Notes under the pieces: model-generated
Databases searched by the model: none
Told to the model about the DNA's origin: nothing
Seen by the model: the letters and a program-made list of their open reading frames with translations, nothing else
DNA from: Patescibacteria group bacterium
GTDB lineage: Bacteria; Patescibacteriota; Patescibacteriia; Patescibacteriales; Patescibacteriaceae
Direction: 5' to 3'
Length of the DNA: 64,000 nucleotides
Assembly: GCA_028704945.1 (NCBI GenBank)
Contig: JAQWEL010000004.1
Span: 1-64,000 of the forward strand
Shown here: in pieces, positions 1 through 52,525 of the stretch
How positions within the stretch are numbered: position 1 is the stretch's first letter
Layout of the letters: each line of letters opens with the position of its first letter
Position numbers and translations under genes: made by a program

Positions 1-156
1 AGCGAAAAACATTTCCCAAATGTTTTTCGGACGTTCACTGCAATATTTTTGCTCACTCGCAAAAATATTTAGTTCACTCCTGACCTGTTCGAATCCCTAC
101 CGCTTTTCTACAAATAATAAAATACACTCCTATTCAGGGGCGTATTTTATTATTTG
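1..156. repeat. tRNA-linked structured element A (downstream of tRNA-Ser)
   Basis: Non-coding. It holds three hairpins. The first has a perfect 12-bp stem (3-14 with 18-29) and a CCC loop, and begins and ends in CG. The second has an 11-bp stem (42-52 with 59-69). The third is a 15-bp palindrome (111-125 with 142-156) that abuts the discriminator base of tRNA-Ser. Between the second and third lies a T-arm mimic at 70-103, which contains TAGTTC and TGTTCGAATCCC. The same order of parts is found beside tRNA-Asn and tRNA-Glu. The left end is cut by the window edge, so a flanking direct repeat cannot be checked. Confidence 0.7.
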
Positions 157-243
157 CGGAGAGTGAGGGATTCGAACCCTCGAGACCGGTTAAAGTCTGG
201 CCGCTTTCCAAGCGACTGCACTCGACCACTATGCGAACTCTCC
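157..243 (-). tRNA. tRNA-Ser (anticodon GGA)
   Basis: On the minus strand the 87-nt sequence folds as a class II tRNA. It has a 7-bp acceptor stem (GGAGAGT with ACTCTCC), the anticodon loop CTTGGAAAG carrying GGA, a long variable arm and a TTCGAAT T-loop. The discriminator is G and no CCA is encoded. A palindrome begins at the next base downstream. Confidence 0.95.
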
Positions 244-8663: not shown

Positions 8664-8735
8664 TCCCGGGTAGCGCAGCGGTAGCGCAGTTGACTGTTAA
8701 TCAATTGGTCGTGGGTTCGAATCCCACCCCGGGAG
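8664..8735 (+). tRNA. tRNA-Asn (anticodon GTT)
   Basis: 72 nt with acceptor stem TCCCGGG/CCCGGGA, anticodon loop CTGTTAA and T-arm GTGGGTTCGAATCCCAC. The discriminator is G and CCA is not encoded. Its last 16 nt plus one base (8720-8736) are repeated exactly at 8932-8948. Confidence 0.95.
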
Positions 8736-8948
8736 CAACGATAATAAAATAGGGTTTCTTGTACAAGAAACCCTATTTTATTATCGTTATTTTTTTGGGA
8801 CGGTGGGATTCGAACAGGTTGGCAGAGAACTAGCCTGAGGGACGAAGGCGCAGTGAGCGCTCGATAACCTTTTGGGAAAAGGTTATCGCCAACCCTGGAC
8901 AAGTGAGCCCGACCCAGCGGGCGAGCGCGGAAATCCCACCCCGGGAGC
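8736..8948. repeat. tRNA-linked structured element B (downstream of tRNA-Asn)
   Basis: Non-coding. A perfect palindrome with 26-bp arms (8737-8762/8763-8788) plus a T-run abuts the tRNA. An inverted T-arm mimic (GGTGGGATTCGAAC, within 8801-8818) follows, with the TAGTTC motif on the minus strand at 8827-8832. Next is a hairpin with a 12-bp stem and 3-nt loop that begins and ends in CG (8862-8873/8877-8888). The element ends in a direct 17-bp copy of the tRNA-Asn 3' end (8932-8948). Read on the minus strand, the parts are in the same order as in elements A and C. A spurious 98-codon minus-strand frame crosses it. Confidence 0.75.
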
Positions 8949-30550: not shown

Positions 30551-30866
30551 TTGTTCGATTCCCATAGGGTTTGATACATAGCAAAAACAAGCTACTTATA
30601 CTATAATCTCTCTTGCTCGCTGAGTCGGGCTCTTCGTAACTTATAAATTAACTACTATTTTCTTGTTAATCTCACTCACTGGCCGACAGAATACGGCCAG
30701 TTCGTTCGTCCAGAGTCAGCGTTAACCTGATAACATCAGGTTAACGGACGCTCATTTAACGCTCGCTCGTTCCCTCACGAGCATTATTTCGCTCCTGACT
30801 TGTTCGATTCCCCTATGGTTTGATACATAACAAAAATAAGCTACTTTGTAGCTTATTTTTGTTATG
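30551..30866. repeat. tRNA-linked structured element C (downstream of tRNA-Glu)
   Basis: Non-coding. A 47-bp direct repeat (30551-30597 and 30800-30846, 43 of 47 identical) contains the T-arm mimic TTGTTCGATTCCC and flanks the core. Inside is the 12-bp stem with 3-nt loop beginning and ending in CG (30720-30731/30735-30746), followed by GACGCTCA. A 20-bp palindrome (30825-30844/30848-30867) reaches exactly the tRNA discriminator. Architecture as in elements A and B. Confidence 0.75.
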
Positions 30867-30938
30867 TAGTCCCTAGGGGAATCGAACCCCTGTTGTCGGG
30901 ATGAAAACCCGGTGTCCTAACCACTAGACGAAGGGACC
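30867..30938 (-). tRNA. tRNA-Glu (anticodon TTC)
   Basis: 72 nt with acceptor stem GGTCCCT/AGGGACT, anticodon loop TTTTCAT and T-arm AGGGGTTCGATTCCCCT. Discriminator A, no CCA encoded. The discriminator is also the first base of the downstream palindrome. Confidence 0.95.
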
Positions 30939-36278: not shown

Positions 36279-36441
36279 AGTTGATCTGTGCGAGTGGAGG
36301 GACTCGGCTCCGGTTGCTAAGTTTTTTGCTATCGCTATGCTCTGCAAAAAACAAGCACCCCAGCCCGGCCTCGCGGTGCTCACTACCGTTCACACATCGC
36401 TCCGGCTTTCTCGTCCCTGCACAGGTCAAGCAGTTGATCTG
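36279..36441. repeat. tRNA-linked structured element D (downstream of tRNA-Leu)
   Basis: A perfect 28-bp direct repeat containing the tRNA-Leu 3' end lies at 36279-36306 and 36432-36459, and encloses ~125 bp. The core has a 9-bp stem hairpin (GTTTTTTGC/GCAAAAAAC), a GCACC/GGTGC hairpin and several GCTC and TTCAC words as in A-C. A 10-bp near-perfect palindrome (36420-36429/36434-36443) runs into the tRNA. The similarity to A-C is weaker than among those three. Confidence 0.6.
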
Positions 36442-36523
36442 TGCGAGTGGAGGGACTCGAACCCTCAATTCGTGAGAAACATGCTCCTAAGGCATGCGCG
36501 TATACCAGTTCCGCCACACTCGC
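36442..36523 (-). tRNA. tRNA-Leu (anticodon TAG)
   Basis: 82 nt class II tRNA with acceptor stem GCGAGTG/CACTCGC, anticodon loop CTTAGGA, variable arm and T-arm GAGGGTTCGAGTCCCTC. Discriminator A, no CCA encoded. Confidence 0.95.
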
Positions 36524-44284: not shown

Positions 44285-46960
44285 ATGAATAAATTTATCA
44301 ATCGCCATCGTCAAACAATAGGCACAGCCTTAATTTTGTTAGGTTTTGTTTTTGTTGTGACAATGGTTTTTTTTATAAAATCAACCACCGTGTTAGCTGC
44401 TGATGCTTCGGTTGGCACAGGACAAGTTGATATTTGGAGTGATCAATACTCTCAAGATCAAGTCGGCTTTACCTCTTTTGAAGACATCGGTATGGGCAAG
44501 CGCGATCCAAGAAGAATTATTGCTGCCGCTATCAATGTTATGCTTGGTTTTATGGGGGTAGTGGCTACTTGTTTTATAATTTACGGCGGTTGGCTTTGGA
44601 TGAATGCTAAAGGCAATGAGGCCCAGATTGAAAAAGCTAGAACATTATTAAAAAATTCTATTATCGGACTTTTGATAATACTATCAGCTTTTGCTTTAGC
44701 AATCTATATTACCAGGGTTCTGCTGGGGATTACGGATGGTAAGAGTGCTGGTGTCGGAAATAGTTTCAGTGGAAATAATTTTTCTGGTTCCAGTGGAGCC
44801 TCGGCTTTGGGTGGTGGAATTATTAAAAGTGTTTATCCTGCGCCTAATCAAACTGATGTTCCACGAAATACCGGCATCTTAGTGACTTTTAAAGAAGCAA
44901 TTGATCCCGCTACAATCTGTGATAAAGTTTCTGGTGGTAAATGTGATACCGACGCTAAAATTTTAACTGACAACATAAAAATATTTGCCAATGATAGCCA
45001 GTTGAATAAAGTTAGCGGTATTAGCAAGCAACTGGGTAGTACTAGCAGTATTGAATTGGTTGATGCTTTTGTTAAATCGATTGATAATTACACTTATTTA
45101 TTTAAACCAGTAGAAGTAATCGGTTTGCCGACTGATAATGTTTGGTATAGCGTTGAGATGACTAAAAATATTAAAAAACACAACGCCAAAGATGCTTTTA
45201 CTAAAGGTAATTTTTCTTGGAAATTTGAAGTTTCTTCAAAAATTGATTTAACCCCTCCAAAAGTAACTGACTTAATTTTCCCTTATCCTGATAATAGTCA
45301 GGACACGGTCGGTTCAATTGAACCCGCTAAAGCCGCCTCTGCTTCATTTGTGTTAAAAGAAATACCACAAGCAGCGTCTGTTAATCGTGTTAGTTATGTC
45401 AAACTTAATCCATCAGCTTCAGAAATAAATATAGCTAATCCAGACACTAATACTTGCTCAGGCCAGATGGATATCTCTATAAATAACACTTCGCCATACA
45501 CAGCCAATATTGATTACAATAACATGGCGGGCAAGGTTAACGAGCCCAATAAAGCGATTGTTGATAGATTTATTGAAACCGCCTGCGGGTTTAATGTTGA
45601 AATTGATCCGGGTTTTCAGGCTGGCCATGCTTGGCGCTTGGATTTGTCTGCTAAAAGATCATCTGACTTTTTAACTGTTGGTTTGATTAAATATACGTTC
45701 GTAACTAACAATCCGGCTGAGTCTGAAATAGCAATCGGGTCTACGCTTGAAGAAACTGTTGCTGCTATCGCCACTAAATTACGATTTAATCAGATGGTTA
45801 ATGTTTATTTGGAAGCAAATAATAAAATAAAATTAATTGCCAAAACTCCTGGCGAAGCTGGCAATAAATTAATCTTGTCGTCAAATCTGGATTCGTCAGC
45901 CATTGTCATTGATGATTTTAGCGGTGGAGCTGATGAAAACAAAAAAATGAATATTAATGATAAACAAGATCAGCCTAAGAACGCTATTATCCAAATAAAT
46001 TTTAATGAATCGATTGATCCAGCTTTTGTTTCCGGTAGTTCTGAGGATGTTAAGGATGTTATTAGGGTGATAGATAAAAAAACCAATACGCGTATCGCTG
46101 GTAATTTTATCGTGTCTAATGATTTTAAAACAGTTGAATTTATTCCTAAAGAAGAATGTGGGGTTAATGGTTGTGGAGAAACTGTGTATTGTTTGCCTGG
46201 CGAATCAGAAATAGTAGTGGAGCTTGTAGCCGCTAGGCTAACTGCCTCTTGTACAGGCGCAGCTGATTGCGGGCCAAGATCTCCTTTTGATGTTTGCCAA
46301 ACTAATATTTGCGTTGATAAAGATGGAGTTAAATATCCTGAGGGTCAATCAGGCAGCGGTATTACCGACTTAGCTAAAAATTCTCTTGATGGAAATGCTA
46401 ATAGCCAAGCTGAAGGACCAGGGGATTGGTTTAATGCTAATTTGCCTACACTAAAGCGAGGCGATAATTTCCGTTGGTCATTTTGGACATCGGCCAATCT
46501 TGATATTACGCCCCCCGCAATTGTTGAAGTAAAACCAGAGCTAAATGCCGCTGGAGTCGGCTTGTATGATCCGGTAACGATTGAATTCAATAAATTAATG
46601 CTTTCTAATAGTTTAACAACCGGTGAAGTAACAATTAAAAAAGGTGATAAAGAAGTTAAACATCAATTAGTTAATTTATGGTCTTTGGATAATTCTATTT
46701 TGGCTTATTGGGTTAGCAAAAATGATTTGGCTACCGGTCAAACTGGTTCCCAACTGCCTGATCGTTCTATTGCGGTTATCGGTCATTCTCCATTTAAAGA
46801 TGCTTCATTATTTAAAGCTCAGGTCGGGTCAGGCGTAAAAGATATTTATCAAAATTGTTTTAAGCCTTGCGCTGGTGTTGCTTGCAATGCGGATGTAATT
46901 AATTCAAGTTGTTGCGCTGGCAATCCTTCTAAAACTACTAATGATGGCAAGTGCCCTTAA
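44285..46960 (+). CDS. Giant surface protein 1: TrbC/VirB2-like membrane module plus Ig-like domains
   Basis: 891 aa. Hydrophobic segment 12-35, then two helices (80-104, 123-147) with the sequence ...DPRRIIAAAINVMLGFMG...IYGGWLWMNAKGNEAQIEKA... typical of the pilin-like TrbC/VirB2 modules in CPR proteins. After ~150 a Gly/Ser linker leads to Big_5/SbsA-like Ig domains (IKSVYPAPNQTDVPRNTGILVTFKEAID, cut at ~185-215; further copies near 310, 560 and 750). The C-terminus has paired Cys (CFKPCAGVACNADVINSSCC). It is a paralogue of the next gene. Likely a membrane-anchored external protein. Confidence 0.8.
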   Translation: MNKFINRHRQTIGTALILLGFVFVVTMVFFIKSTTVLAADASVGTGQVDIWSDQYSQDQVGFTSFEDIGMGKRDPRRIIAAAINVMLGFMGVVATCFIIYGGWLWMNAKGNEAQIEKARTLLKNSIIGLLIILSAFALAIYITRVLLGITDGKSAGVGNSFSGNNFSGSSGASALGGGIIKSVYPAPNQTDVPRNTGILVTFKEAIDPATICDKVSGGKCDTDAKILTDNIKIFANDSQLNKVSGISKQLGSTSSIELVDAFVKSIDNYTYLFKPVEVIGLPTDNVWYSVEMTKNIKKHNAKDAFTKGNFSWKFEVSSKIDLTPPKVTDLIFPYPDNSQDTVGSIEPAKAASASFVLKEIPQAASVNRVSYVKLNPSASEINIANPDTNTCSGQMDISINNTSPYTANIDYNNMAGKVNEPNKAIVDRFIETACGFNVEIDPGFQAGHAWRLDLSAKRSSDFLTVGLIKYTFVTNNPAESEIAIGSTLEETVAAIATKLRFNQMVNVYLEANNKIKLIAKTPGEAGNKLILSSNLDSSAIVIDDFSGGADENKKMNINDKQDQPKNAIIQINFNESIDPAFVSGSSEDVKDVIRVIDKKTNTRIAGNFIVSNDFKTVEFIPKEECGVNGCGETVYCLPGESEIVVELVAARLTASCTGAADCGPRSPFDVCQTNICVDKDGVKYPEGQSGSGITDLAKNSLDGNANSQAEGPGDWFNANLPTLKRGDNFRWSFWTSANLDITPPAIVEVKPELNAAGVGLYDPVTIEFNKLMLSNSLTTGEVTIKKGDKEVKHQLVNLWSLDNSILAYWVSKNDLATGQTGSQLPDRSIAVIGHSPFKDASLFKAQVGSGVKDIYQNCFKPCAGVACNADVINSSCCAGNPSKTTNDGKCP

Positions 46961-46969
46961 TTTTTTATT

Positions 46970-49900
46970 ATGTCAGGCGATAAATTAAAAATATTTTATA
47001 AAAAGATAACGATTATTTGTTTGTTTTTAATTTCGGCAATCGGCTTTTTTTATCCAATTACTAATGTAATGGCCGAAACTTTAAACAGAGTTGATGTTTG
47101 GTCTGATCCGTATTCTACGGAGCAAGTCGGCTTTGCTGCTTTTAAAGAAATCGGCTTAGGTACGCGCGATCCAAGAAGGATTATTGCTGCTGGAATTAAT
47201 GTTTTGTTAGGCTTTGCCGGTGTAGTGGCTATCTGCTTTATAATTTACGGCGGTTGGATTTGGATGAATGCTAAGGGCAATGAAGCTCAGGTTGAAAAAG
47301 CTAAAAAATTATTAAAAAATGCTGTTATCGGTTTGTTAATTATTTTGTCAGCCTTTGCATTATCTATTTATATCACCAGGGTTCTTTTAGGAATTACTGA
47401 TGGTACTAGCGCTGGTGTTGAAACTGGTTGCCAAACTGGGCAAAGCAGAAGTTGCGGCTGTAGTGGCTTACAGGCTTGTTCAGACGGGCAGTGGGGGGCA
47501 TGTGTTGGGTCAGATTGCGGTGGCAGTAACCCGGGACAGTATTGTGACGGTAATGTGCTTACCCCGACTTGTGAGGCTGATAATAGTAATTGTGGCGTTA
47601 ATGAATATTGTGACGCTACGAGTTGTCGCTGTCTTAAGGGGGGTGGGCTTGGATCTTCTTGTAATGGAGATACCTCTACCAGCACGGCTGCTTGCCAACC
47701 GGACCAGACTAAATGCGGACAATATTTAAAATGTGATGCGACTTCTTGCACCTGTGTTGGCGGGCCAGTCATTGAAGGCATTACCCCGCAAGGCGGTTAT
47801 TGCGATGGATCATTGTCAACGCCTTGTTTATCTGATGATGATTGTAAAACATTTAATCCGACAACCTGTAACCGCAAAAATCCAAATATCGCGACCGGTA
47901 ACTTAGTTACAGTCAGGGGTCGTTATTTTGGCAACTATGATACAGCTAAAAGTAAAGTTCTGTTGCCCGCTACAACAGGTTTCGTCGAGGCTAATTTAGC
48001 TGATACTGTAAATCCTGATTGTTCTGGAGGCTGGACTGACACTCAAATCGTAGTGGTAGCACCGGCAGGCATCAAGGATGGAGCCGTAAAGGTTGAGTCT
48101 GTTAATGGTGAAGATATTTCTAATGATAGTGTCGGACCGCAATTAGCTGATGCTAAGGTTAATGAATTAGAGCGTCCCGGACTTTGTAAGCTTTCCAAGG
48201 AAAAGGGAATTTTTGGGGACAAAATTGATTATTATGGATTAAATTTACAAAATTCAACCGGTTTTTTTGGTAATTTTTTTCAAAATTATCAAGGTGATCA
48301 ATCTATTTTTCAAGATAAGCTAAAAGGTTCTGTTACTGTGCCAAATATTGAATCTCGCGATACTACTACTTATGTTTTAAAGACTAATAAAGCCGCCAGT
48401 AATTTTTTAGATTTTAGTAAATTAGCTGACGCTATGTCAGGACCAGCAATCAATAATTTTGAACCTAAAGATGGTCCTGCCGGTCAATATGTAACTATTC
48501 GTGGAACAGGTTTTGGTATTAAGAAGAACGACAGCAAAGTGATTTTTGGCGACATTGAAGCTGATTATTCGTTTCCAGCCGTTTGCGCCGAAAGTGTTTG
48601 GAGCGACAATGAAATAGTTGTTAAAGTGCCGAAAGGTTTGACTGATAATAATTATAAATTAACAGTTATTGTTGGTTCTGATCGCGCCGAGTCACTTGAT
48701 AATTTTGTTTATGATTCTAACAAAGATTTAACGCCAGGTTTGTGCAAGCTTGAACCAAATTTAGCGGCTGGCAATGATGACATAAATTTATATGGAGAAT
48801 ATTTTGGCAGGTTAGATGATTATTCTAAGATAATTTTTCAAAACAATTTAGAACGTCAGCGAACTAATAAGCTGTGTATCGGTGGAGCTGATAATGGCCA
48901 AAGTTGCAATTCTGATACTGACTGTGACTCTGGTAAATGTCAATCAGAAATTTCTTTTTGGGCGATTGATACTAAGGCAACCACTAAAATTGAACGAGCT
49001 ACCACTAAAATTCCAGCTGAAGCTATTACTGGTCCAGTAAGATTATCTAAAAATCAAACTGGCTTATTGAGTAACAGTTTGAATTTGACCATCGGTCAAT
49101 GCTCTAAGGATGAACAATGCGGTAATGGCAATATCTGCTGCCAAATTGGTTCTCCTTTAGCTGGTACTTGTCAGTCAAATAAAGAAAAATGTTTTGGCAC
49201 AAATGATAATTGTGTGTTTGAATGGGGATTTGGCACTGGTTCCGCTGGCAAATGTCCTGAAGATCGACCTAACTCTTGCCAAGATGGAACTTGCTGTAAA
49301 GCTATCTGCGCTTATGACAAAAATTTGGGTAAAACGACTTGTATGGATGGAGAATCTTGTGGCGGTTATGGTGTTGGGCAATGTTTAGATGCTAATACTT
49401 GCCCGAATTCTCCAGGTAAATGCAGCTTTAGCGATGCTGGGGAGAAAATTCAAGGTTCAAGTTGTGATTGTACGATTTTAGGCTATGTCGGCGCTGAATA
49501 TGATGTTAATCTTAATAAGTGCGTTAAGTTTAGCTATAATTGTTCTCTTAATATGAAAGTTGATGACGTTGACGGTAATCAGGTTGACGCTTATTGTGCG
49601 GACTATGCTGGACAGCCACGTTGGCACATTGATAGCGATAAAATTTGTCCCAACGGTTTTACTAAAGCAGCTGGCAACAATAGCCTGTGTGTTGATGTTA
49701 ATAGTTTTTGCCAGTTATGCAATAGCAATTATAAATGCATTGATCAAGACGGGCTCGGTGTTTGCGCTTCGCCATACCCTGTTTGTCCATCACAATTTAC
49801 TTGCCAAGCTGGTTCTTGCACGCAAGAAAAAAAAGGTTCTTGTGAGTGTTGCTGTGACAAGCAACAAAATAAGACGGACGGCACCAATCCAGCTTGTTGC

Positions 49901-52525
49901 GCTCCGTTGACTTGCGATAATGAATGCGGAGCGGGTGGTGATTTTGGTAGTTGCTCAGGTTGCGCTAATGTTGGTTCAACTCAAGCTGAGCATGATGCTG
50001 CTTGTAATTGCACTGGCAATTCTGGAAAATTTTGCGATATTTCAGTCGCTGGAGGGGTTTGTCGAGATTGTTCACAAATTGGTGATAGTACAAAATGCAC
50101 CAGCCATAATGCTTGTTGTGTTGATTTTAAAAAAGGTAACGCTTGTACTGGTGTTAAAGAAACGAAGATTTTTGAAAATAATATTGGTTTTTGCGCTTAT
50201 TTTGATTGTGGTGATAATTGCCAAGCAGCCGGTAAAGATAAAAAATATTCAGAAGTTAAGAATTGCCAAGGCTCATGCGCTATCAGTTGCGATGGTAGTG
50301 GTAGCGCCGGCTGTCAGAAAGATTTAAATCTTTGCCCGGCTGACAAACCGGTTTGTGGCAACGATTGTCTTTGTAAAGAGTCTGGTGAAAAGCCTGGCGA
50401 CCCTTGTTCATCGCCTAAAGACGGGCAGTGTAGTTTATTTTGTGGCAACATTTATGCTTGCCGCGGTTCTTTGGGTTGCACCGGACTTGATTGTAACGGG
50501 CAACCAGATGAAAAAACTTGCCGATGTTGCTGTAATCCGCATAACCAATCTAATGATCCAAGTTCAGCTGATTATGATAAATGTAAAGCCGTTGGTAAAG
50601 GTAATTTGTCTTGCCAAGCTAATGCCGGTGATTGTACTGGTAATGAACGCGGCTTGTGTTGCGGTTGTAGTGGAGATGATGAATGCGGTTTACCTAATGA
50701 GGTTGGTTGCGGCAAAGATCGCTGTTGCCATCCAAGGCCGGTTGTCGAGCAAATGGTGCCAGCCAGCAATGCTGATAATGTCTGTCGCAACCCTTTGATT
50801 AGAGCCGACTTTTCTCAACAAATGGATAAAGGTTCTTTTTTGACTAATATGATTTTGGTCGGTGATTTTTTGGATGAAACTTGCCCAGAAGGCACAAGTC
50901 TATTGGCAACGGCTGATACTAGCGGTAATTGGTTTACGAATGTGGTTAAGACTATCAAAGATTGGTTAGCAACTCTTGTCGGTTTAAATAATGAAGTCGT
51001 CGCGGCTAGCGGACATAATTATTGCTTAGTTAATGGCGGCATAGCTGTCAGCGATTTTCAGGATGCTAATAAAAATAAAACTAACGCTTATTATCAAATT
51101 AGATCAGTCCTTAATCCCGGCATAAAATATTATGTAATCATTAAGGGTGATTCTCAATTAAATAGTCAAAGTGGCATTAAGTCTATTAATCGGATTGGTC
51201 TTAAAGGAGAAAATTTAACAGCAGAAACGTCTTTTAATGGTTTGGAATTTCCTAACGCGCAAATTTGGTCTTTTACTACCGGATATGATATTTGCACTAT
51301 TAGTAATATTGAAGTTAGTCCTAGTCAGCATTTATTTCAGAAAAAAGATGAAAAATATTCTTTTTTTGCCGTTGCTAAAACTGATAACGGTCAGCCGATA
51401 GTTTCAACCAATGAATATGCTTGGAACTGGGAATGGTCGGTTGATGATCCTTTAATCGCAACTTTATCAGCCGATGAAACCATTCCAGAAATGGCTGAAG
51501 GAACACCAACTAAGTCTAACAATGGCCAAACTTTCGGCTATGCTAAGGCTTATATTACGGCTGATACTGTCAGCCCGATGTCAACCGCCGGACAGTTTTA
51601 TGAAGGTCAAACGCTTTTGATCGTGTTTTTGTGTAATAATCCTTGGCCGCCAGTTAACAACGTTAACACTTGGCCAATCAAATGGATTGATAGCTCTGAT
51701 AATTGTAAAATTTGTTATGACAAAACTACTGGTCAGACAAAAAATTGTACCCCAGCTGATTGTTTGAATAATGATTTCTCAATTTATTATTGTCGTGATA
51801 AAGCAACTGATAAAACCAAAGATGATTTACCGTCGATTGATAAAAATTCACCTATCAATGGTTATTATCTTTATGTTGAAAATAGTAAATGGAAAGAGGT
51901 TATAAAGAGTTATTATTTCTTTAGGGACAAGCTGCCTGATGTACCAACTGGTATTAAATCGGAAAATAGCGATAATAAGCTTGGTGGTAGTGCTAAAATA
52001 AGCTGGAATATTTCGGCCGGTAAAAAATATAAAATTTATTACGGCACAGCTTCTAAAGGTTATTCAGCTTCGGTGGAAGCATTAAAATCTCCGACCATTA
52101 TAACTGGTTTAAAAAATAATCAGACTTATTATTTTGCCGTTACTTATATTGATGATAATGCCAATGAATCATCTTATTCAAACGAATCAAAATTATTAGT
52201 CGGCGATGTTGTCCCACCATCAGCTCCAGCAGAATTTTCTGGTTTGATAACCAAAAAACAGGCCGATGGTTTGATTAATTTGGCTTGGCGGCAAGAGAAA
52301 ATAGATGTTGTTAAGTATATTATTGAATATGGTCCCAGTGTAATGCCGGCTGTTAGTGTTGATTTAGGTTTAAAAAATAATTTTAAATTAGATAAGCTTA
52401 CTAATTTAAATACTTCTGACTATTATTTTAAATTATATGCTGTCGATGCTTTTGGTAATAAAAGCGCCGCCGCTAATTTAAAATGCGCTAAGGCTTGCGC
52501 TCAAGCTAAATGTGTTTGCCAATAG
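46970..52525 (+). CDS. Giant surface protein 2: TrbC/VirB2-like module, IPT/TIG, Cys-rich and FN3-like regions
   Basis: 1851 aa. The first ~150 residues match protein 1 closely (same DPRRIIAAG, IYGGWIWMNAKGNEAQVEKAKKLLKNA). Then a Cys/Gly-rich segment (~155-270), IPT/TIG-like domains (~275-385 and ~505-590), a long Cys-rich region (~690-1240) with knottin-like spacing, and a C-terminal FN3-like pair (about 1640-1851; ISWNISAGKKYKIYYG...NQTYYFAVTYIDDNANESSYSNES). It could be the longest adhesin in the window. The 9-nt gap to protein 1 indicates one operon. Confidence 0.8.
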   Translation: MSGDKLKIFYKKITIICLFLISAIGFFYPITNVMAETLNRVDVWSDPYSTEQVGFAAFKEIGLGTRDPRRIIAAGINVLLGFAGVVAICFIIYGGWIWMNAKGNEAQVEKAKKLLKNAVIGLLIILSAFALSIYITRVLLGITDGTSAGVETGCQTGQSRSCGCSGLQACSDGQWGACVGSDCGGSNPGQYCDGNVLTPTCEADNSNCGVNEYCDATSCRCLKGGGLGSSCNGDTSTSTAACQPDQTKCGQYLKCDATSCTCVGGPVIEGITPQGGYCDGSLSTPCLSDDDCKTFNPTTCNRKNPNIATGNLVTVRGRYFGNYDTAKSKVLLPATTGFVEANLADTVNPDCSGGWTDTQIVVVAPAGIKDGAVKVESVNGEDISNDSVGPQLADAKVNELERPGLCKLSKEKGIFGDKIDYYGLNLQNSTGFFGNFFQNYQGDQSIFQDKLKGSVTVPNIESRDTTTYVLKTNKAASNFLDFSKLADAMSGPAINNFEPKDGPAGQYVTIRGTGFGIKKNDSKVIFGDIEADYSFPAVCAESVWSDNEIVVKVPKGLTDNNYKLTVIVGSDRAESLDNFVYDSNKDLTPGLCKLEPNLAAGNDDINLYGEYFGRLDDYSKIIFQNNLERQRTNKLCIGGADNGQSCNSDTDCDSGKCQSEISFWAIDTKATTKIERATTKIPAEAITGPVRLSKNQTGLLSNSLNLTIGQCSKDEQCGNGNICCQIGSPLAGTCQSNKEKCFGTNDNCVFEWGFGTGSAGKCPEDRPNSCQDGTCCKAICAYDKNLGKTTCMDGESCGGYGVGQCLDANTCPNSPGKCSFSDAGEKIQGSSCDCTILGYVGAEYDVNLNKCVKFSYNCSLNMKVDDVDGNQVDAYCADYAGQPRWHIDSDKICPNGFTKAAGNNSLCVDVNSFCQLCNSNYKCIDQDGLGVCASPYPVCPSQFTCQAGSCTQEKKGSCECCCDKQQNKTDGTNPACCAPLTCDNECGAGGDFGSCSGCANVGSTQAEHDAACNCTGNSGKFCDISVAGGVCRDCSQIGDSTKCTSHNACCVDFKKGNACTGVKETKIFENNIGFCAYFDCGDNCQAAGKDKKYSEVKNCQGSCAISCDGSGSAGCQKDLNLCPADKPVCGNDCLCKESGEKPGDPCSSPKDGQCSLFCGNIYACRGSLGCTGLDCNGQPDEKTCRCCCNPHNQSNDPSSADYDKCKAVGKGNLSCQANAGDCTGNERGLCCGCSGDDECGLPNEVGCGKDRCCHPRPVVEQMVPASNADNVCRNPLIRADFSQQMDKGSFLTNMILVGDFLDETCPEGTSLLATADTSGNWFTNVVKTIKDWLATLVGLNNEVVAASGHNYCLVNGGIAVSDFQDANKNKTNAYYQIRSVLNPGIKYYVIIKGDSQLNSQSGIKSINRIGLKGENLTAETSFNGLEFPNAQIWSFTTGYDICTISNIEVSPSQHLFQKKDEKYSFFAVAKTDNGQPIVSTNEYAWNWEWSVDDPLIATLSADETIPEMAEGTPTKSNNGQTFGYAKAYITADTVSPMSTAGQFYEGQTLLIVFLCNNPWPPVNNVNTWPIKWIDSSDNCKICYDKTTGQTKNCTPADCLNNDFSIYYCRDKATDKTKDDLPSIDKNSPINGYYLYVENSKWKEVIKSYYFFRDKLPDVPTGIKSENSDNKLGGSAKISWNISAGKKYKIYYGTASKGYSASVEALKSPTIITGLKNNQTYYFAVTYIDDNANESSYSNESKLLVGDVVPPSAPAEFSGLITKKQADGLINLAWRQEKIDVVKYIIEYGPSVMPAVSVDLGLKNNFKLDKLTNLNTSDYYFKLYAVDAFGNKSAAANLKCAKACAQAKCVCQ

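Follow-up and report, generated by a model that had tools for sequence, protein, structure and literature searches.

The window, by which we mean the whole 64,000-nt stretch analysed (positions 1 to 64,000 of contig JAQWEL010000004.1), belongs to a Patescibacteria genome of 984 kb in 13 contigs, with 49 tRNA matches. On its minus strand lies tRNA-Leu(tag) (36441-36523, ARAGORN and Rfam), and by repeat comparison the last part of this gene (tRNA 56-74) and 9 nt of trailer form one copy of a 28-bp repeat (36432-36459, minus strand) that recurs with 28 of 28 nt matching at 36279-36306 on the same strand, just as the preliminary description of this DNA had stated. Extended to 36275 and 36428, the two copies agree at 31 of 32 positions. 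The distal copy is taken as the native 3' end of the tRNA, on the CCA polarity argument given below, and the insertion point falls at tRNA 57/58 (about 36457/36458, numbered by hand). Between the copies, again on the minus strand, there is a short guide, AGGGAC (36413-36418), complementary to tRNA-Leu 59-64; the sequence and the covariation of helix P1 in class 2 indicate that it forms P1 with the distal copy. The class-2 folded unit (36286-36421, minus strand), a match of the covariance model R2, takes in the guide, the core and part of the distal copy. We saw no perfect hairpin in the unit at tRNA-Leu.

The repeat reported for tRNA-Asn(gtt) (8664-8736, plus strand, ARAGORN; insertion point 8719/8720) was also recovered, 8720-8736 being identical to 8932-8948 (17/17). 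This distal copy of tRNA 58-74, the native one, is followed by CA, i.e., CCA is kept. In between, all on the plus strand, we found a perfect 26-bp inverted repeat forming a terminator-like hairpin (8737-8788), the guide GGTGGGATTCGAAC (8802-8815), which is the exact complement of tRNA-Asn 53-66, and a class-1 folded unit matched by model R1 (8804-8938). The third gene, tRNA-Glu(ttc) (30866-30938, ARAGORN), is followed on its minus strand by a perfect 21-bp inverted repeat, again a terminator-like hairpin (30824-30868), by a guide consisting of the inverted T-arm (30802-30818) and by a class-1 folded unit (30664-30813, R1 match). The 47-nt pair that the preliminary description gave as a duplicated tRNA end (30551-30597 and 30800-30846) does exist, with 43 of 47 positions matching. 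What recurs in it, however, is not the tRNA 3' end: each copy consists of the right hairpin arm followed by the inverted T-arm. The repeat is the leftover of a decayed second unit behind tRNA-Glu, reduced to hairpin arm and guide (30551-30597, minus strand, within 30551-30600 of the window).

The preliminary description had no case at tRNA-Ser(gga) (156-243, minus strand, ARAGORN), which bears a like class-1 unit at 1-100 on the same strand. The contig start truncates this unit, whose guide is at about 87-100, and contig C8 has a more complete copy at its end. The assembly breaks within the near-identical units of two tRNA-Ser genes (window 1-100 and the ends of contigs C8 and C13), and several contigs end within units, as expected for near-identical repeats. 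Elsewhere in the window (44285-52525) there are two large proteins of 891 and 1851 amino acids with TIG, Big_5 and weak T4SS-pilin matches. T4SS-pilin matches, the sizes of the genomes and the single Xer gene would fit a patescibacterial host.

Anatomy and fold of the units

All four tRNAs of the window (Leu, Asn, Glu, Ser) carry units, as do about a dozen tRNAs genome-wide: Arg(tct), Gly(gcc), Asp, Gln(ttg), Leu(caa), Asn, Glu(ttc), Ser(gga), Ser(tga), Val(cac) and Leu(tag); the units at Ser(cga) and Glu(ctc) are degraded. The repeats are not due to chance, since a like anatomy is found in this genome at Arg(tct), Gly(gcc), Asp, Gln(ttg), Leu(caa), Val(cac), Ser(gga) and Ser(tga); in the complete cases among the other unit-bearing tRNAs it is the tRNA's own last ~17 nt that are repeated. 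A unit is 150-250 bp long and comprises, in this order, a copy of tRNA 58-74, in most cases a perfect hairpin, the guide, which is complementary to the T-arm, and the folded core (about 110-150 nt); the second copy of tRNA 58-74 comes next. The inverted T-arm copy, absent from the preliminary description, is present in every unit (e.g., 8802-8815). The cores are GC-rich and of two kinds, class 1 in most units and class 2 in those of Leu and Val.

In the class-1 fold, the guide pairs with the distal tRNA copy as P1, two hairpins lie within P2, and one more hairpin stands at the end. Over 101 distinct class-1 sequences 90.4% of cells were paired, with 797 double changes against 236 in shuffled and at most 105 in slid controls, and over 31 distinct class-2 sequences 96.3% of cells were paired, with 122 double changes against 29; the alignments were fitted to their models, which favours structure, yet the excess over slid controls is still large. 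By this covariation the fold is under selection. Two helices of the class-1 fold contain tandem G-A, and its one-sided placement suggests that one particular strand folds.

Comparison with Rfam, at the gathering cut-off and at E≤5, gave nothing credible for the cores of the window and of six own loci. A phage search matched the tRNA alone, and loose pattern scans of genome contigs and viral contigs gave no match with the tRNA context of the unit, the matches obtained being judged chance. We found no earlier description of such units in the open-licence literature, and they seem to be an undescribed family of tiny folded DNA elements lacking a recombinase gene.

Distribution, insertion and polarity of the units

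We searched 381 genomes of the same taxonomic class with the two models, R1 (trained with the tRNA-Asn copy of the window included and the tRNA-Glu copy left out) and R2 (built from three copies, the tRNA-Leu unit among them). The units recur across many genera in a patchy distribution, with R1 matching in 46 of the 381 genomes and R2 in 43. About 100 class-1 matches were retrieved, and in 60 of the 88 with full upstream context a tRNA, of many isotypes, was located 40-64 nt upstream on the same strand; the rest were in tandem, in arrays or without a recognisable tRNA. Most class-2 loci that we read had a like tRNA-adjacent setting. As the models lack the tRNA body, this placement is largely an independent result, limited by the tRNA-derived guide and tail of both models. 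Both classes were found in tandem in one array (L353). At L351, L421 and L436 a single tRNA is followed by unit copies in tandem, perfect or nearly so. Homing to the same isoacceptor was considered and dropped, nearest neighbours in other genomes being only weakly enriched (10 against 4.3 expected, with a largest shuffle of 10).

The preliminary description had set beforehand, as the observation that would speak against insertion, that all sister genomes be occupied at these tRNAs. The genus was represented in our search by one further genome, G001, and this one has empty sites: it is without a unit at Gly(gcc), Asp, Gln(ttg), Leu(caa), Arg(tct), Ser(gga) and Val(cac), all of these sites coming from this one genome, which is fairly distant for the same genus. 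At Gly(gcc) the empty site lies in a tmRNA-Leu-Gly cluster common to both genomes (about 66% DNA identity around tmRNA). At Glu(ttc), G001 has a decayed unit. The polarity can be read from the CCA. Of 55 tRNA-adjacent units, 9 encode it behind the distal copy alone, and no unit (0/55) has it behind the proximal copy alone. Therefore, the distal copy is the old tRNA end, the proximal one arrived with the unit, and insertion took place at 57/58.

In G084 a near-identical unit, hairpin included, is found at Glu(ctc) and Glu(ttc), and the DNA beyond the distal copy differs. The hairpin loops of these two units (L325, L407) are inverted relative to each other (CAGAG and CTCTG). Cores can also be 83-86% alike at different tRNAs, with differing hairpins and guides (Asp and Gln in G268, Ser and Leu in G000). 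Like tRNA-integrating elements, the units thus lie between the copies of a duplicated tRNA 3' end and have an empty site in a relative; they have no integrase gene of their own, for which 150-250 bp leave no room. We are close to certain that they are insertions at tRNA genes, and the proposal of a non-autonomous inserted element, already made in the preliminary description, is well supported by the empty sites and by the lack of a recombinase in every unit. A non-mobile RNA module of long standing, kept behind tRNA genes to regulate or protect tRNA ends, would explain the conserved fold and the constant place behind tRNAs. However, it is disfavoured by the empty sites and the decayed remnant in the same genus, and the patchy distribution, the tandem copies, the distal CCA and the gene cassettes at the same point (see below) also argue against it, making it a most improbable reading.

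Gene cassettes at the same T-loop point

In relatives, ORFs are found between the tRNA, or its unit, and the next copy of the tRNA end, i.e., at the same T-loop point. Their cargo includes a radical SAM protein, a nitroreductase, MarR with two ABC exporters, Fic, CYTH, EutH and a DHH-like ORF, and no integrase was among the cargo examined. Where the boundary was clear, the cassette ended in GTTCnAACnnC followed by the tRNA-end-like sequence of a folded unit or by the native end. The cassettes are sometimes in arrays interleaved with folded units, and arrays have up to six end motifs, the tRNA being identified for some of them; in G080, single-gene cassettes without a folded unit are located at Ser(cga) and Ser(tga). 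An earlier idea, that of a folded core at the end of each gene cassette, was dropped: cassettes and folded units are separate units.

Exact GTTCnAACnnC was counted by hand about 117 times forward and about 46 times in the reversed control, and since this is a ~2.5-fold excess single matches may be chance. The motif does not occur in the window's genome. Exact 8-mers of tRNA 66-73 were found behind 11 of 66 end motifs (against 83 of 3636 random positions), so that most copies are degenerate or some motif matches are chance. As in integrons, arrays occur whose gene units have a common site at their ends (L344, L347, L359, L553, L568). By eye, however, the ends are not those of attC (R''-L''-L'-R' boxes, GTTRRRY), consisting instead of GTTCnAACnnC plus the tRNA-end-like copy. 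Beside one cassette array (L346/L389, G149) there is a reverse transcriptase with repeats resembling a diversity-generating retroelement.

Candidate recombinases and known systems

A tyrosine recombinase was present in 24 of the 24 genomes tested, with exactly one, Xer-like, in the window's genome; being found in genomes with and without units, its presence does not discriminate. The recombinase genes in or near the loci examined were of Xer-like, phage-type or serine kinds only. As agents we discarded the IS110-type DEDD recombinase (in 2 of 14 unit-bearing genomes), HUH Y1 and serine recombinases (each missing from some carriers) and reverse transcriptase. Because the other classes examined are each missing from some carriers, an Xer-like or unlinked recombinase would be the most economical agent; a helper recombinase since lost from the genomes is possible.

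Alternatively, units and cassettes might owe their movement to a large serine recombinase, or to integrative elements likewise located at tRNAs. In G031 a large serine recombinase (L564, 4983-6503), its end overlapping tRNA-Gln, is about 4.5 kb from a cassette array, and there are phage-type integrases in the neighbourhood in G080 and G090. This is nevertheless very unlikely, as G141 has 8 class-1 matches and no serine recombinase, and several unit-bearing genomes have only one tyrosine recombinase.

Bridge RNAs and the guide sequences of introns direct insertion, and on this model an RNA of the core could pair through its 5' guide with the tRNA gene across the insertion point and direct insertion there. 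The guide does span the 57/58 junction, reaching 5 nt to one side of it and about 8 to the other, the covariation is strong and the tandem G-A motifs, which are familiar from RNA and count against a folded-DNA site, are on one strand. Still, we consider RNA guidance unlikely given that the DEDD recombinase is absent from 12 of the 14 unit-bearing genomes, the window's included, that several carriers lack a reverse transcriptase and that the cores fit no group I or other Rfam family. The terminator-like hairpin usually found just upstream of the guide, and G-U pairs that are rarer than in tRNA stems (a weak point), lean weakly towards a site acting at the DNA level. A group I intron proper was discarded: the pairing order of the guide is alike, but there is no intron core and no Rfam match, either at cut-off in the window or among the weak matches in six own loci.

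The explanation that we favour, and that we regard as probable when taken as a whole, is an inserted non-autonomous unit with a folded site recognised by a trans-acting recombinase. The unit inserts in the T-loop of the tRNA gene between positions 57 and 58, where comparison shows both insertion and polarity. With it come a copy of tRNA 58-74 that lacks CCA, in most cases a terminator-like hairpin, the guide and the folded core. The tRNA end that it brings restores the interrupted tRNA immediately; the old 3' end is displaced to the other side of the unit, and hence the direct repeats. The folded strand, with the core closed by the guide:tRNA-end helix P1, may be the attachment site of a site-specific recombinase, most likely of the tyrosine type and recognising a folded strand as integron integrases do with attC; this recombinase part, proposed by analogy, is plausible and put forward tentatively. 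Two points speak against the favoured explanation: the branched fold of 150 nt does not resemble known attC sites, and there is no account of how guide and tRNA-end copy change together when a similar core appears at a new tRNA.

Integron cassettes are similar in being recombinase-free units in arrays, with a folded site, a fixed insertion point and cargo genes. In contrast, the units here are anchored in the T-loop of a tRNA, we saw no integron integrase next to the arrays, and the fold, of ~150 nt and branched, has one helix formed with the tRNA-end copy, unlike attC. Genomic islands and satellites that integrate in tRNA genes also duplicate and restore the 3' end, but the units measure 150-250 bp, lack an integrase, have a conserved fold and usually their own terminator-like hairpin, and occupy many tRNAs within a single genome. 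Xer-dependent elements (IMEX, plasmid dif modules) are likewise non-autonomous and use the host recombinase, a likeness that holds if Xer is the agent here; the units target tRNA and not dif. With the bridge RNAs of IS110/IS1111 they share a structured nucleic acid and a guide spanning the target, whereas most carriers lack the DEDD recombinase and the guide pairs in an outer helix rather than in internal loops.

A broader and somewhat doubtful possibility is a tRNA-anchored cassette system, integron-like and independent of integron integrases, in which folded units and gene cassettes would share one recombinase and enter the T-loops of many tRNA genes, the guide:tRNA-end helix giving target specificity. 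The analysis yields a precise site (57/58), two search models and one cassette-end motif, and indicates that where tRNA ends are duplicated around very short DNA, this can be the sign of a coherent mobile system and not of debris. If true, the target would be chosen by base pairing between the element and the tRNA sequence, and bacteria with small genomes would have a route to capture genes at tRNA loci.
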